A stretch of 45,580 bases of DNA, from positions 1-45,580 of the forward strand of contig JAFPWN010000007.1 in NCBI GenBank assembly GCA_017412765.1, read 5' to 3'. Shown here in pieces: positions 19,766-27,297 of this stretch; the first letter of the stretch is position 1, and each line of letters begins with the position of its first letter. Both the position numbers and the translations under genes were made by a program. This stretch comes from Oscillospiraceae bacterium (GTDB lineage Bacteria; Bacillota; Clostridia; Oscillospirales; Oscillospiraceae). The notes under the pieces are model-generated. The model was not told the DNA's origin and ran no database searches. It was given only the letters and a program-made list of their open reading frames with translations.

Positions 19766-19962
19766 GATGCGTCGACAAAGTCTCCGCATCGAACATATTT
19801 TGCGCTCTCGGAGCGCAAAATATGACGCCTGCGGGCGGATTATGCGACGTGAAGGGGCCTCTTGGCCGGCCCCTTCACAGATCCCCGCCTCCTTTATCCA
19901 ACGCTTTTTCCGTTTTGTCTACAGTCTGAAATAATCCGCCTCGTCACTGAGGCGGATTATTT
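19731..19962. repeat. Hairpin cluster bounded by an inverted pair of near-identical hairpins
   Basis: Between fprA and udp lie four stems. A is at 19731-19764. B is a 14-bp perfect stem at 19794-19824 (CATATTTTGCGCTC). C is an 11-bp stem at 19849-19878 (GTGAAGGGGCC). A' is at 19929-19962. A' is the reverse complement of A with one loop difference, so A and A' form terminal inverted repeats. A short GATGCG/CGCATC pair lies at 19766-19790 and a partial copy of the A arm (GGCGGATTAT) near 19834. The A hairpins act as terminators of the convergent genes, but B and C are not explained by that. Confidence 0.65.
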
Positions 19963-19963
19963 T
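19929..19963 (-). terminator. Terminator of udp
   Basis: The same 14-bp stem as at 19731-19764 with loop GTCACT. It overlaps the last bases of the udp stop codon on the minus strand and gives a T run in that direction. Confidence 0.75.
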
Positions 19964-20708
19964 ACCCTCTTATCATTCTCTTGATCGCTTCGACGGCGCA
20001 TTTTATCGCGCCGGTGGTATCGTGGCACTCCGGGTCGTCGATGCCGAGGCTTTTGCGCTCCTGATTCCAGACGACCTGGAAAACGCTCCCGCACCGCACG
20101 CCTCTCGCGGCGGCAACGCAGAAGAGCGCGGCAGACTCCATCTCACTGCACATGACGCCGAGCCGCTTCCAGCTCTCCCACTTATTGAGAAGCTCGTAGA
20201 AAACCGGGCTTTTTTCCGGCGCGTGCTGACCGTAGAAGCTGTCCTTGCACTGGGCAACGCCGGTGTGATAGGCAAGTCCGAGACTCTTCGCCGCCTCGAC
20301 AAGCTCCTGCGTTACGCCGAAATCCGGCACGGCGGGGTACTCGATAGGCGCGTACTCGCGGCTTGTACCCTCCATTCTGACGGCTCCGGTGGCGATGACG
20401 ATATCTCCGGCGACGACCTTTGTATTTATGCCGCCGCAGGTGCCGACGCGCAGAAAGGTGTCCGCGCCGACGTTACACAGCTCCTCCATGGCGATCGAGG
20501 CCGAAGCGCCGCCGATGCCGGTGGAGCAGACGCTGACCTTCTCGCCGAGAAGCGTTCCGGTGTAGGTGACGTACTCGCGGTTTTGCATTATGAACTTGGC
20601 GTTGTCGAAATACTGAGCTATCTTTTCACAGCGACCGGGGTCGCCGGGGAGAATGACGTAACGCCCGACGTCGCCGGGATTAAGCCTGATATGGTACTGT
20701 TCGCTCAT
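19962..20708 (-). CDS. udp: Uridine phosphorylase
   Basis: It splits uridine with phosphate into uracil and ribose 1-phosphate. The 248-residue protein matches Udp of the nucleoside phosphorylase family: [18 protein letters not shown] (phosphate loop) near the start, [28 protein letters not shown], the [13 protein letters not shown] segment and the [10 protein letters not shown] nucleoside-binding motif near 175. Family members that use purines differ in the latter segments, so uridine is the better guess. It shares a mirror-symmetric promoter region with the GTPase-nuclease gene. Confidence 0.88.
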
Positions 20709-20729: not shown

Positions 20730-20759
20730 ATTGTACCACTTTCAAAAGTATGTTACAAT
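20730..20759. promoter_or_regulatory. Mirror-symmetric bidirectional promoter
   Basis: Plus strand: TTGTAC (20731-20736), 17 bp, TACAAT (20754-20759). Minus strand: TTGTAA (20758-20753), 17 bp, TACAAT (20735-20730). The -35 of each direction is the -10 of the other. Beyond it both genes have matching leaders ending in an AAAAAGGGGGC ribosome binding region, so the whole intergenic stretch is an imperfect dyad. Confidence 0.65.
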
Positions 20760-20789
20760 AATAATAATGAATAAAAAGGGGGCAAAGCG

Positions 20790-23381
20790 GTGAAAAAGCT
20801 CGTATGCGGGATAGTAGCGCACGTTGACGCGGGCAAGACGACGCTGTCCGAGGCGATGCTGTACGCCGCCGGCGCGATACGCAGGCTTGGCAGAGTCGAT
20901 CACGGCGACGCCTACCTTGATAATAACGCGATGGAGCGCGAGCGCGGAATTACGATCTTCTCCAAGATGGCGCGGCTCAGCTTCGGTGAAACGGAGCTTA
21001 CGCTCCTCGACACCCCCGGTCACGCAGACTTTTCCGGTGAAACGGAGAGAGTTTTTTCAGTGCTCGATATGGCTGTCCTCGTTCTCAGCGGAACTGACGG
21101 AGTTCAGGGCCACACGCGCACGATCTGGGAGCTGCTTAAAAAGTACCGCGTGCCGGTTTTCGTGTTCGTAAACAAGACCGACCTCGCCGGCTTTGACCGC
21201 GAGCGGGTCATGGCTTCTCTCGCTGCGCTCGATGAGGGTTTTGTTACGCTCGACGGCGACTGGGCTGAGGCTGTCGCGGAAAAAAGCGAGGGCGCGCTTG
21301 AGGAGTATCTCGCTACCGGCGCAGTTTCGGACTATAATCTGCGCCTTGCGATTGAAAACCTCGAGGTCTATCCGGTGCTGTTCGGCTCCGCGCTCAGAAG
21401 CGAGGGCGTGGAGGAGCTTTTAGAGGCTATAGACCGCTTTGCGCCGATCATTTCGCGCTCGTCCAATCTCGGGGCGCGGGTTTTTAAAATAATGCGCGAC
21501 AAAATGGGCGCGCGAATGACGTTTATGAAGCTCACCGGCGGCGAAATTCGGGTAAAGGATATCCTCGGCGGCGAGAAAATCGACCAGATACGCCTCTATT
21601 CAGGCGAGAAATACACGCTGGCAGATTCCGCCGAGGCGGGCGACGTCGTCGCGGTGACGGGGCTTAATTCGAGCTTTATCGGCGAGGGCTTCGGCGTTGA
21701 GAATAACGCCGAGGAGCCGTATCTCGAGCCGGTCATGAGCTTTGACGCGATACTGCCTGAGGGCGTCGGCGCGGCGTCGGCTCTGCCGAAATTCCGCATT
21801 CTCGAGGAGGAGGACCCGCTTCTGCACGTCGGCTATTCCGAGGAAACGGGGCGCATAAGCCTGCGCCTTATGGGAAAGGTGCAGACGGAGGTTGTGGCGC
21901 GTTCGCTGCGCGACCGCTTCGGGCTGGAGGTACAGTTCGGAGAGGGCGGCATAATCTACCGCGAAACCGTAAAAAACACGGTCGAGGGCGTTGGACACTA
22001 CGAACCGCTGAGGCACTACGCCGAGGCGCATATCATAATCTCGCCGCTGCCGCGCGGCAGCGGGATCGAGATCGGTTCCGTCGTGCCGGAGGACGAGCTT
22101 GACCGAAACTGGCAGAGGCTCATTCTCACGCATCTTGCGGAAAAGCAGCATCTCGGCGTGCTGACCGGCTCGCCGATAACGGACGTTCGGCTGACGCTCG
22201 CGGCGGGCAGAGCGCACCTCAAGCACACCGAGGGCGGCGACTTCCGCGAGGCGACCTATCGCGCCGTGCGCGAGGGGCTTATGGAGGCGGAGAGCCTGCT
22301 CCTCGAGCCGTGGTACGACTTTACGCTCACTCTGCCGGTGCAGAATATGGGCAGGGCGATGACAGACCTCGACCTCATGGGCGGTGAGTACGGCTCGCCG
22401 GAAGCTGCGGGCGATACCTGCGTGCTGACCGGCTCGGCGCCGGTCTCGGCGCTGTCCGGCTACGCCGCCTCCGTGACCGAGTACACGCGCGGTCTCGGGC
22501 GCCTGAGCCTCGCCTACGGCGGCTACCGCGAGTGCAAAAACGCGCAGAAGGTGATCGAGGATATCGGCTACGACCCGGAGCGCGATACGGCAAATCCCGC
22601 GGGCAGCGTCTTCTGCGCTCACGGAGCGGGGTACCTCGTGCCGTGGAACGAGGTAAAGGCGAATATGCACCTGGAGAGCGCGCTTAAGGCTGAAAAGGAG
22701 CCTGAAAGGGCGCCGGAGATTCGGAGAAGCGCCGCGCCCGCCGGCGATAAGGAGCTTATGAGCATCTTCGAGCGCACTTACGGCGAGGTGCGCCGCCGCG
22801 ACTTTCTTCCGAAGGAGGAGCGGAGAAAATATGAGGGCAGAACATCGCTCGACGATAAGAAGGTCGAGATAAAGACCCGCTTTACCGGCGCGGAGTATCT
22901 GCTCGTTGACGGCTACAACGTCATCTTCGCGTGGGACGAGCTGAAAAAGGTCAGCGCGGAGTCGCTTGACGCGGCGAGAAAGATGCTTATGGACGCGCTT
23001 TCAAACTTCCGCGGAGTCAAAAAGAACGAAATTATCCTCGTTTTCGACGCCTACAAGGTAAAGGACGGGGTCGAGAAGGTCGAGACCTACAACGGTATTT
23101 CCGTCGTTTACACCAAGGAGGCGGAGACTGCCGACACATATATCGAGCGCACGGCGCACAGGCTCTCAAAGACCCACAAGGTCTACGTCGCCACCTCGGA
23201 CGGCCCGGAGCAGATGATAATCCTCGGATCCGGCGCGCTGAGAATCACGGCGCCGGAGCTTAAGGGCGAGATAGAGCTTGCAAAGGGCGACATCGCGGAC
23301 TTCATACGCCGCAATAATCTCGCCGCCCGCACGCGCCCGATGGAGGAGGCGTTCAGAAAGGCACAACCGAAAGATGAGTAA
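20790..23381 (+). CDS. Tet(M)/EF-G-like translational GTPase fused to a Rae1/YacP-type NYN ribonuclease domain
   Basis: This is an 863-residue two-part protein. Residues 1 to about 640 follow ribosomal-protection GTPases of the Tet(M) group: G1 AHVDAGKTT, switch RERGIT, G3 DTPGHADF, G4 NKTD, then EF-G-like domains II-V. After a charged linker (about 640-700), residues 700-845 match Rae1 (YacP), an endoribonuclease that cuts mRNA in the ribosomal A site. They have YLLVDGYNVIFAW (Asp707), LVFDAYKV (Asp753), KEAETADTYIE (Glu779, Asp782) and ATSDGPEQ (Asp804). Tet(M) is about 640 residues, so the nuclease is an addition. The GTG start follows AAAAAGGGGG. Tetracycline resistance is not implied. 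Confidence 0.88.
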   Translation: MKKLVCGIVAHVDAGKTTLSEAMLYAAGAIRRLGRVDHGDAYLDNNAMERERGITIFSKMARLSFGETELTLLDTPGHADFSGETERVFSVLDMAVLVLSGTDGVQGHTRTIWELLKKYRVPVFVFVNKTDLAGFDRERVMASLAALDEGFVTLDGDWAEAVAEKSEGALEEYLATGAVSDYNLRLAIENLEVYPVLFGSALRSEGVEELLEAIDRFAPIISRSSNLGARVFKIMRDKMGARMTFMKLTGGEIRVKDILGGEKIDQIRLYSGEKYTLADSAEAGDVVAVTGLNSSFIGEGFGVENNAEEPYLEPVMSFDAILPEGVGAASALPKFRILEEEDPLLHVGYSEETGRISLRLMGKVQTEVVARSLRDRFGLEVQFGEGGIIYRETVKNTVEGVGHYEPLRHYAEAHIIISPLPRGSGIEIGSVVPEDELDRNWQRLILTHLAEKQHLGVLTGSPITDVRLTLAAGRAHLKHTEGGDFREATYRAVREGLMEAESLLLEPWYDFTLTLPVQNMGRAMTDLDLMGGEYGSPEAAGDTCVLTGSAPVSALSGYAASVTEYTRGLGRLSLAYGGYRECKNAQKVIEDIGYDPERDTANPAGSVFCAHGAGYLVPWNEVKANMHLESALKAEKEPERAPEIRRSAAPAGDKELMSIFERTYGEVRRRDFLPKEERRKYEGRTSLDDKKVEIKTRFTGAEYLLVDGYNVIFAWDELKKVSAESLDAARKMLMDALSNFRGVKKNEIILVFDAYKVKDGVEKVETYNGISVVYTKEAETADTYIERTAHRLSKTHKVYVATSDGPEQMIILGSGALRITAPELKGEIELAKGDIADFIRRNNLAARTRPMEEAFRKAQPKDE

Positions 23382-23385
23382 AACT

Positions 23386-23417
23386 AAAGAGCCGGTCGCT
23401 TTATACCGGCTCTTTTT
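23386..23417 (+). terminator. Terminator after the GTPase-nuclease gene
   Basis: The 11-bp stem AAAGAGCCGGT/ACCGGCTCTTT has an 8-nt loop and ends in five T residues. Confidence 0.85.
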
Positions 23418-23451
23418 CGGTGTAGGATAGCCGTGAAAGGAGATGAAGCGC

Positions 23452-24474
23452 ATGGAAAACATGGGCAAAAAGATAAAGGAGCTGCGCCTGCGGCACAATC
23501 TCACGCAGGAGGCGCTCGCCGAGGCAGTCGGAGTGACTGCGCAGGCGGTATCGAAGTGGGAAACGGGGGCGGGTTATCCCGACATAACGGCTCTGCCGGT
23601 GCTGTCCGAGACTCTCGGCGTTACGCTCGACGAGCTGTTCGATCTGACCGAAGAGCGCCACCTCGCGCGAATCGAAACGATGCTCGACGAGGGCGCTGAT
23701 ATGTCGGACGAAAACTATGCATACGCAAGAAGAGTGCTGACGGAGGGGCTTCAGAAGCCGGAAACGCGCGGCCGCTGCCTTACGATGCTGTCTGACCTTA
23801 TGCTGGCGCGCGGCGATAAATATTACGCAGAGGCGGAGAGGTACGCAAAAGAGGCGCTGGAGGTTGAGCCGGAGAAGAAGGACAACCACTCGTGCTACAA
23901 CATGGCGGTGAAGGGCCACGTCTGGGACTGGTGCGAGTCAAATCACGCGGAGTATATAGACTTCTATAAAGCTTTCATCGGGAAAAATCCGAACTACGCG
24001 CCGGGTTATCTCTGGCTTCTCGACAAGCTCATCGTAGACGGCAGGCTCGCGGAGGCGCGGGAGTATCTTGCGAGGATGAAACGAGTACGCGACAGTTACC
24101 ACGTCGAGCTCTACGCCGGGTGGATCGAGGAAAAGGCGGGAAACCGCGAGAAGGCGGACGAGCTTTGGGATAAAATGGCTGAGAAGTACCCGGATATATG
24201 GTTCGTATTCTCCGCGCGCGGCGATAACTTCGCTAAGCGCGCCGAATGGGATAAGGCGATAGCCGAGTACAAGCGCGCCTTCGAGCTTCAGACCGAAAAG
24301 CCGCGCTACACCGATAATCTTCTCAGCATAGCCCAGATCTATGAGATAAAGGGCTGCAGGACTGCGGCGATCGAGGCATACAAGGCGACCATCGACCTTC
24401 TGGCTGAGGACTGGCAGCTCACCGAGGGGTTTGAGGTGAGAAGAATAAAAGAGAAAATAAAGGCGCTTAGCTGA
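23452..24474 (+). CDS. XRE-family regulator with TPR-like C-terminal repeats
   Basis: This 340-residue protein has an N-terminal HTH (about 1-62: IKELRLRHNLTQEALAEAVG, then TAQAVSKWETGAGYPD). A long helical region follows with repeated A/W-rich helix pairs resembling tetratricopeptide repeats (for example AEYKRAFELQTEKPRYTDN). This arrangement is common in Firmicutes cytoplasmic regulators, some controlled by peptides. The ATG at 23452 is nine bases after AAAGGAG; an ATG at 23443 touches the ribosome binding site and is less likely. Another XRE protein follows after a terminator-like hairpin. Confidence 0.85.
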   Translation: MENMGKKIKELRLRHNLTQEALAEAVGVTAQAVSKWETGAGYPDITALPVLSETLGVTLDELFDLTEERHLARIETMLDEGADMSDENYAYARRVLTEGLQKPETRGRCLTMLSDLMLARGDKYYAEAERYAKEALEVEPEKKDNHSCYNMAVKGHVWDWCESNHAEYIDFYKAFIGKNPNYAPGYLWLLDKLIVDGRLAEAREYLARMKRVRDSYHVELYAGWIEEKAGNREKADELWDKMAEKYPDIWFVFSARGDNFAKRAEWDKAIAEYKRAFELQTEKPRYTDNLLSIAQIYEIKGCRTAAIEAYKATIDLLAEDWQLTEGFEVRRIKEKIKALS

Positions 24475-24499: not shown

Positions 24500-24540
24500 A
24501 ACAGATGACGTGTTATTCTCAGACAAAAGGAGCTGATTTT

Positions 24541-25125
24541 ATGGATAATTACGTCACGGGCGCGGCGATCCGCAGAAAGCGCGAGGAAAAGGGGATGACG
24601 CAGGAGGAGCTTGCAAACAGACTCTCCGTCAGCGGAAAGGCCGTTTCAAAGTGGGAGACAGGCCAGGGCTTTCCCGACGTGAGCCTTCTCGAGCCGATCG
24701 CCGGCGCGCTCGGAATATCGGTGATCGAGCTCATTTCCGGCGAGGATATCCGCAACCGCAACCGCGCTTTCAATATGGCAAGGTGCCGGTTTTACGTCTG
24801 CCCGGTGTGCGGAAACGTGATAACCGCCGCGGGCGAGGCGCTCATATCCTGCTGCGGAGTGACGCTGCCGCCGCTCGAGCCCGAGGAGATTGACGGAGAG
24901 CACTGTATCTCTGCTGAAGCCGTCGAGGACGAATACTACGTCACGCTCAACCACCCGATGGAGCGGGAGCATTACGTTTCGTTCCTTGCGGCGGTGACGG
25001 ATAACGGCGTCAGCATAGTGAAGCTCTACCCCGAGGGCGGGTGCGGGGCGCGGTTCAAAATGAGCCGCGTGCAGAGGCTCTTTGCATACTGCAACCGCCA
25101 CGGTCTGTTCTGCGTGAAGGTATAA
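24541..25125 (+). CDS. XRE HTH fused to a complete desulfoferrodoxin (superoxide reductase) domain
   Basis: This is a 194-residue protein. Residues 1-62 form an XRE HTH (IRRKREEKGMTQEELANRLS, KAVSKWETGQGFPD). Residues 82-106 carry the Fe(Cys)4 desulforedoxin pattern, CPVC (87, 90) and CC (104, 105). Residues 115-194 match the superoxide reductase domain with all five iron ligands: His121, His138 and His144 (NHPMEREHY), Cys184 and His187 (AYCNRHGLF). Superoxide reductase turns superoxide into peroxide. Fusion to an HTH suggests either an oxidant-sensing regulator or a DNA-tethered enzyme. AAAAGGAGC precedes the ATG. The MITE-like repeat begins at its stop codon. Confidence 0.88.
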   Translation: MDNYVTGAAIRRKREEKGMTQEELANRLSVSGKAVSKWETGQGFPDVSLLEPIAGALGISVIELISGEDIRNRNRAFNMARCRFYVCPVCGNVITAAGEALISCCGVTLPPLEPEEIDGEHCISAEAVEDEYYVTLNHPMEREHYVSFLAAVTDNGVSIVKLYPEGGCGARFKMSRVQRLFAYCNRHGLFCVKV

Positions 25126-26418: not shown

Positions 26419-27297
26419 TTATAATTCCTCCTTCTTATTTATCCATGATACTCGTGTATTTATAATAGGTGTTTCATAAAATCTTGCGGTTTTGTCGCGC
26501 TCGGTGTCGTTCCACTTGTCAAAGCCCTCCGGCGCTATGTGACTGCCGTACTCGCAGTCGGTAAACCTTGCGATGCCGTAGTCGCGCCATGGCCTTGCAA
26601 GATAGATGCCGGAAACGCCGTCCTCCGCGGTAAAGCGGCAGCGGCGAAACTCCATGCCGGTCGTGTTCTCAAGCCCGTGAGCCGGCGCGCAGACGTAGCC
26701 GACGCCGCGCTTATCCCACAGAGAGCGGATCTCGCAGTCCTCAAACACCGCGTCGCCGCAGCCGAAGATGAAATCGACCGTTCCCTCGATAAGGCACCTT
26801 TTAAATACCTGCTTCATCGGCTCGTAGCGCCGCAACTCCGGCGGGAGCATATCGACGTAGCGCTGCGTGAGATCGTAGGGCAGAGGTCCGCAGAAGAGAG
26901 TGTCCTGCGTCGAGGTGAGGCGGCAGTCCGTCATCTCGAAGCCGCCGCCGTAGACGGTCAGCGCGACCTCCTGACCGAGCACCTCCGGATAGCGCGAGTA
27001 GTTTTTTACGGTCAATCCGGTCATTCTGACGTTATCGCCCGTAACGGCGAGGGTAAACGTGCGGAACGTGTTGAACTCGCGCCCGTCCGGGTGCGGCTTT
27101 CTGGCGTAATCGCCGAATTCGAGCACCGTTTTATCCATTCCGGCGCCGATTATCGTCACGTTTGAGGCGCTGAGAACGAATTTTCCGCGGTAGATTCCCT
27201 CAGAAAGATGTACAATACAGTCATTTTGCAAATTTGTTAAAATTGTATTAAGAGAATCTGAGGGCGAAATATATATATTCTGCGGCATATTTTCCAT
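26419..27297 (-). CDS. Pectin methylesterase (CE8), cytoplasmic
   Basis: It removes methyl groups from galacturonan. The 292-residue right-handed beta-helix protein carries every expected active-site residue: Gln109, Gln131-Asp132 (STQDTLF), Asp175 (GTVDFIFG), Arg235 and Trp237 (LARPWRDYG). About 20 extra residues lie between the two Asp motifs. The N-terminus (MENMPQNIYISPSD) is polar with no signal peptide, so it would act inside the cell on imported, still-methylated oligomers. It is the first gene of the minus-strand pair with kdgK. Confidence 0.92.
   Translation of the reverse strand: MENMPQNIYISPSDSLNTILTNLQNDCIVHLSEGIYRGKFVLSASNVTIIGAGMDKTVLEFGDYARKPHPDGREFNTFRTFTLAVTGDNVRMTGLTVKNYSRYPEVLGQEVALTVYGGGFEMTDCRLTSTQDTLFCGPLPYDLTQRYVDMLPPELRRYEPMKQVFKRCLIEGTVDFIFGCGDAVFEDCEIRSLWDKRGVGYVCAPAHGLENTTGMEFRRCRFTAEDGVSGIYLARPWRDYGIARFTDCEYGSHIAPEGFDKWNDTERDKTARFYETPIINTRVSWINKKEEL

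Follow-up and report, generated by a model that had tools for sequence, protein, structure and literature searches.

A translational GTPase fused to a Rae1-type nuclease domain in Clostridia: a candidate ribosome-targeted mRNA endonuclease

The window analysed in this work, a stretch of 45,580 nucleotides from an Oscillospiraceae bacterium, contains a gene whose product combines an EF-G-like translational GTPase with a nuclease domain of the Rae1/YacP type (Table 1). An original prediction, made from the sequence alone, had described such a fusion at 20790..23381, and this observation is confirmed. The closest named relative (L148), encoded on an Oscillospiraceae MAG contig from roe-deer rumen, is 93% identical over the protein, and relatives of this kind point to Clostridia as the window's class. 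Upstream, the fusion gene and udp diverge from a gap of 81 bp, in which both strands show weak promoter-like matches; downstream, a terminator-like hairpin follows the stop codon, and the fusion gene is therefore probably transcribed as a single gene. The idea that it is expressed from a promoter shared with udp found no support, and udp was rejected as a partner, since it adjoins the fusion gene only in L148 among the 106 loci searched.

Table 1. Features of the fusion gene and its immediate surroundings (positions in the window)
Feature	Position	Strand	Basis or remark
udp (uridine phosphorylase), divergent neighbour	19962..20708	-	
Divergent promoter-like match, facing udp	20758-20730	-	consensus match only
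Weak promoter-like match (9/12), 5' of the fusion gene	20741..20768	+	consensus match only
Shine-Dalgarno-like AAGGGGG	20776..20782	+	7 nt 5' of GTG; read from sequence
GTPase-NYN fusion gene, 863 aa, GTG start	20790..23381	+	exact ORF
GTPase (G) domain, residues 5-219	20802..21446	+	AHVDAGKTT, RGIT, DTPGH and NKTD motifs
EF-G domain II, residues 229-298	21474..21683	+	profile, 24.6 bits, below the cut-off of 27
EF-G domain III, residues 320-384	21747..21941	+	profile match
EF-G domain IV, residues 388-500	21951..22289	+	profile match
Domain IV tip loop K478-H-T-E-G-G-D484, aligned with Ser508-Pro509-Val510 of Tet(M)	22221..22241	+	alignment
EF-G domain V, residues 504-585	22299..22544	+	profile match
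Family C-terminal extension, residues 586-626, SVFC-HGAG-V-W-MH	22545..22667	+	alignment
Linker, residues 627-701	22668..22892	+	residues 635-651 and 667-696 with pLDDT <50
Conserved linker element, residues 652-665 (helix 652-664, ends IFERTYG)	22743..22784	+	model and alignment
NYN_YacP (Rae1-type) nuclease domain, residues 702-849	22893..23336	+	profile, fold and alignment
Terminator-like hairpin, directly 3' of the stop codon	23415-23386	-	consensus match only
Shorter terminator-like match, 3' of the fusion gene	23394-23411	+	consensus match only

The gene neighbourhoods of the family were compared at 88 of 103 fused loci and at all 17 unfused loci, among which no conserved neighbour and no conserved operon pointing to translation was found; an earlier scan of 20 of 26 fused loci had likewise returned no conserved neighbour. 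The widest recurring neighbour group, an ABC-transporter-like set named by eye, occurs at 8 loci. One recurring group resembles, by eye, an antisense frame. In the window, an antisense open frame of 356 aa lies within the GTPase half (21600-22670, minus strand) and is probably a by-product of base composition. Directly downstream of the fusion gene, two tandem helix-turn-helix-like proteins were recognized by eye (23443-24474 and 24505-25125), the first of them weakly RstR-like, and the pair is found in the same order in L148. A gene at 26419-27297 on the minus strand, pectinesterase-like by eye, has a 53% match at L069, a fusion locus in a genome of the same genus.

Pfam profiles identify the EF-G domain order at residues 5-585 of the fusion protein and NYN_YacP at 704-849. 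The motifs AHVDAGKT, RGIT, DTPGH and NKxD are conserved, the GTPase residues D13, K16 and H78 are kept in all 69 near rows of the alignment, the top fold matches of this half are EF-G and EF-G2, and the genome holds, by sequence match, an EF-G and an EF-G2-like copy besides the fusion. With EF-G and EF-G2 the family shares the domain order and the GTPase motifs, but it differs from them in the tip loop of domain IV and in the C-terminal extension. With Tet(M), Tet(O) and TetB(P) it has in common the five-domain EF-G-like organization and the DFR residues after the tip loop, whereas the fusion is only 28-32% identical to these proteins, lacks Pro509, carries its own C-terminal extension and falls into a separate clade. 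The extension is common to fused and unfused members of the family and absent from the Tet(M), Tet(O), Tet(36)-like, Otr(A)-like and EF-G rows.

In a tree of 50 GTPase rows, built without Tet(Q), Tet(W) and Tet(T) and without the long Tet(36)-like and L145 rows, the 43 family rows, fused and unfused, form one clade with support of 100/100, and Tet(M), Tet(O), TetB(P) and the Otr(A)-like protein form a separate clade, also at 100/100, with long branches flagged for the Otr(A)-like and EF-G2 rows. When EF-G is the root, the family is the sister of the resistance clade. A quick tree that included the Tet(36)-like and L145 rows and omitted TetB(P) gave SH-aLRT values of 98 and 99 for the two clades. 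The window GTPase is 31.7% identical to TetB(P); to the unfused members compared, its identity is 39.9% for one from a clostridium and 43.3% for the one from L. salivarius. What stands of the initial label "Tet(M)/ribosomal-protection-type" are the EF-G-like domains I-V; membership of that group is not supported, given the separate clade and an identity of 28.5% to Tet(M) against 27.7% to the EF-G of the same genome. One fused homologue (L145:5013-7535, genome G254) has an altered P-loop, which reads ASADTGKTT instead of AHVDAGKTT, as well as VDAYN instead of VDGYN, and keeps the core nuclease acids and the HTEGGDF loop.

According to a report on the Tet(M) structure, Pro509 lies at the tip of domain IV and overlaps the tetracycline site (PMC7456112). 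The comparison with Tet(M) domain IV loops, which the original prediction had named as a check on its reading, turned out against a Tet(M)-like tip: the Pro509 column, occupied by Pro in all four RPP references of the tree (Tet(M), Tet(O), TetB(P) and Otr(A)-like), contains Lys in 42 of 43 family rows, including K478 of the window, and Val in the remaining one. His479 and Thr480 are present in 43 of 43 family rows and every one of the 69 near rows has the entire KHTEGGD loop; L145, which is not among the 43 rows, reads RHTEGGDF by eye, with Arg at the Pro509 place. By homology, a tip loop that is both distinctive and invariant suggests that this family touches the decoding centre in a manner of its own that is under strong constraint. 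As judged from the aligned proteins, the tip loop and the C-terminal extension are evidence against membership in the resistance family, and no proof that resistance is absent.

The architecture as such is not new, since Atkinson 2015 (PMC4342817) reported "Tet proteins" with a YacP-like NYN domain from ten clostridial species. The fusion is real and widespread and belongs to this published family, with which it shares the combination of a Tet-like trGTPase and a YacP-like NYN domain in Clostridiales; the difference is that the GTPase is here placed outside the clade of the compared resistance proteins and that its tip loop is distinct. New in the present comparison of sequences are the placement of the GTPase outside the RPP clade, the KHT-GGD tip, the fusion-specific linker motif, the missing Rae1 tail and the lack of conserved neighbours, udp included, and the interest of the family accordingly lies in its reinterpretation, not in the discovery of the fusion. 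Atkinson 2015 filed the fusions under Tet and proposed that the RNase adds to resistance, i.e. that a tetracycline ribosomal protection protein has gained an RNase domain. The RPP-like five-domain GTPase, the sister relationship to the resistance clade under an EF-G root and the fact that tet_protect is the best NCBIfam model of the fusion protein (381.5 bits) agree with this proposal, as does the annotation of an Agathobacter rectalis fusion and of many unfused L. salivarius members as TetM/TetW/TetO/TetS family, although a Monoglobus fusion and one L. salivarius copy are annotated as 'translation factor GTPase family protein'. The proposal is weakened by the score, which does not reach the tet_protect cut-off of 775, by the replacement of Pro509, by an identity to Tet(M) hardly above that to EF-G, and by the wide occurrence of the family in the class with no conserved resistance neighbours at the loci examined, and it now appears improbable.

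The two halves are connected by approximately 75 residues that are mostly disordered in the predicted model and include one helix with the motif D-EL--IFERTYG. In the 41 of 69 homologues in which the linker could be measured by script, its length is 71-88 residues (median 78). With a pTM of 0.67 for the whole-protein model and a disordered linker, no use was made of how the model positions the halves against each other. All 69 near rows keep E661, T663, Y664 and G665 unchanged, and a strict pattern of the motif matches 22 of the 26 diverse fused proteins and none of 25 proteins that lack the nuclease (17 clostridial unfused members, one from L. salivarius and seven RPP/EF-G references). Among the four fused proteins missed by the pattern, L085 and L087 carry a variant of the motif by eye. 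Across these aligned proteins, the linker motif is fusion-specific.

The nuclease half was folded separately because Foldseek/VIA runs on the whole model in effect tested residues 1-621 only. Its model has a fold match to the Rae1 type, bearing out the structural assignment of the C-terminal domain, and the NYN_YacP profile recognizes it. Bacillus subtilis Rae1/YacP (PDB 5mq8, 5mq9) has the same nuclease fold and core acids, its D7, D53, D81, E85 and D104 corresponding to D707, D753, D782, E786 and D804 of the fusion and its E78 to E779, in a numbering counted by hand from alignments. The five core residues are invariant in 69/69 near, 26/26 diverse fused and 34/34 stand-alone rows. Among the acids first proposed for the active site, D707, D753, D782 and D804 are thus kept across homologues, and E779 is variable, being Glu or Gln in fused and stand-alone forms alike.

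The characterized enzyme differs from the fusion at its C-terminus. Rae1 stands alone, in close relatives as frames of 170 aa, whereas the fused form has the GTPase and the linker motif and lacks the tail LE-(W/I/L)R. In its strict form this tail is found in 30 of 34 stand-alone rows (two more have Met variants and two have no tail) and in 0 of 26 diverse fused rows; the pattern occurs in one of the 69 near rows, in an internal stretch, and is read there as chance. Of 25 fused rows, 8 retain a longer tail that does not match LE-(W/I/L)R, and all eight have Gln in the E779 column. The alignment places R166 of B. subtilis Rae1 within the C-terminal tail, and PMC6613710 reports that R166P causes loss of function. 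The loss of the stand-alone tail, taken together with the position of this mutation, suggests that the GTPase has taken over the delivery of the nuclease to the ribosome. The missing tail may also mean that the nuclease no longer works like Rae1. To treat the tail as a defining trait of the Rae1 family is a judgement, given its absence from two stand-alone rows.

An NYN_YacP match is present in 192 of 293 genomes from the window's class, as a single match in 188 of them, and absent from the other 101. A genome was counted as fused if its NYN frame reached 700 aa or if, besides an NYN match, it had a GTPase-clade frame of 780 aa or more, the joining in this second kind being checked in fetched loci only (L156, L223 and L227 each have one long frame). 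By this definition, the survey of Clostridia envisaged in the original prediction yields 99 genomes with long fused frames and 5 with fragments in the 293. Among the matches listed, stand-alone copies of 169-216 aa occur in 59 genomes, one of which (G339) also has the fusion; 30 further genomes have an NYN match outside those listed and no GTPase-clade match, and three (G177, G230 and G264) combine the fusion with a second NYN match, likewise outside those listed. The fusion mostly replaces stand-alone Rae1, and the two forms are close to mutually exclusive. This exclusion is partly due to shared ancestry. Fused and stand-alone forms occur in different genomes of the same family in four families (f42, f43, f48 and f67). 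Sampling across the phylum gave GTPase-clade matches at 1e-100 or better in 21 of 299 genomes. With the separate clade, the absence of Pro509, the lack of conserved neighbours at the loci examined and the replacement of most stand-alone Rae1, translation stress remains a better inference than drug resistance, as had been suspected.

The same counts bear on an older proposal for YacP-like NYN proteins, made by Anantharaman and Aravind and quoted in PMC4342817, by which the GTPase would bring the nuclease to ribosomes or their precursors for rRNA or tRNA maturation. Both domains fit work on the ribosome, but Rae1, the characterized YacP relative, is described in PMC6613710 and PMC12320835 as an A-site mRNA endonuclease, and the lack of any NYN_YacP match in 101 of 293 class genomes would be unexpected for core rRNA processing. 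There is little chance that maturation is the function of the fusion.

The two halves might also be independent, the GTPase being an EF-G-like paralogue with its own job (e.g. rescue by translocation) and the nuclease being tethered for co-expression only. Of the 17 genomes with an unfused GTPase, 11 have a stand-alone Rae1 among the matches listed and 6 have no NYN match at all; the latter favour independence, as does the placement of the unfused L. salivarius member, with weak support, inside the fused clade. Rosetta-stone support from the co-occurrence of unfused GTPase and stand-alone Rae1 was dropped, as the Fisher test, with the 30 NYN matches outside those listed counted as stand-alone, gave p 0.13; the two halves therefore need not share one pathway. 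On the other side, the four invariant linker residues and the missing stand-alone tail in fused forms suggest that the two halves are mutually dependent, and a purely incidental tether is unlikely.

The preferred reading, to which a probability of roughly 0.6 is given, is that the fusion serves Clostridia as an mRNA endonuclease targeted to the ribosome, its translational GTPase bringing the Rae1-type nuclease to stalled ribosomes. It draws on three facts, namely the EF-G-like body, the changed tip at the decoding centre and the Rae1 active site on a long tether. Judged from its homologues EF-G and Tet(M), the GTP-bound GTPase half would enter the factor site of ribosomes with an empty or blocked A site, and the domain IV tip, KHT-GGD compared with SPVST in Tet(M), would probe or clear the decoding centre. 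Domain IV and Rae1 would need the same A site, so they would have to act in turn or on neighbouring ribosomes: GTP hydrolysis may free domain IV, after which the nuclease could move in on its linker or act on a neighbouring ribosome, the order of the two actions being a guess. The NYN domain, with the activity of Rae1 by homology, would then cut the mRNA in the A site and leave a truncated message as a substrate of tmRNA, the gene for which is present in the genome (166.9 bits, above the gathering score). Against this reading stand the altered P-loop of L145, the lack of conservation of E779, the absence of a translation-linked operon at the loci examined and the missing tail. In the literature searched, no functional test of the fusion and no link between the fusion and A-site cleavage by Rae1 was found, the main Rae1 papers (Leroy 2017, Condon 2018) lying outside that search.

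More tentatively, the entire GTPase clade, partly labelled as tetracycline resistance, could represent a ribosome-rescue family of Clostridia and some Bacilli, whose KHT-GGD tip would recognize an empty or damaged A site and which in many Clostridia would carry its own Rae1-type nuclease. A single GTP-driven chain would thereby inspect the stalled ribosome and cut the mRNA for rescue by tmRNA, as a bacterial one-chain counterpart of the GTPase-led no-go decay of eukaryotes. If so, a family partly annotated as tetracycline resistance would be a translation quality-control factor, resistance-gene counts in gut metagenomes would be corrected, and a bacterial route to GTPase control of an A-site mRNA nuclease would be at hand. 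How Rae1-type enzymes select the right ribosomes would then become directly testable, by comparison of the fused with the stand-alone form.

Several further possibilities for the spread and role of the family were considered and rejected. None of 167 pattern matches in viral contigs encodes a relative, which speaks against phage carriage; two plasmid records, large Monoglobus and Agathobacter replicons, cover at least 80% of the query; and the window protein is without a PADLOC match that would point to anti-phage defence. The unfused members on L. salivarius plasmids (L121 and similar records) are mostly annotated as TetM/TetW/TetO/TetS resistance. A single origin of the fusion is shown by neither the GTPase nor the NYN tree. 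In the former, L121 lies inside the fused clade with weak support and may therefore have lost its nuclease, and a tree that unites the fused rows and leaves the L. salivarius member outside them is not rejected (p-AU 0.302). The NYN tree contains three changes of label, with the stand-alone L048 among the fused domains, and one clade of the fused domains is not rejected (p-AU 0.273). L048 (genome G265) is a stand-alone YacP-type nuclease, weakly grouped with the fused domains, and its genome also encodes an unfused GTPase.
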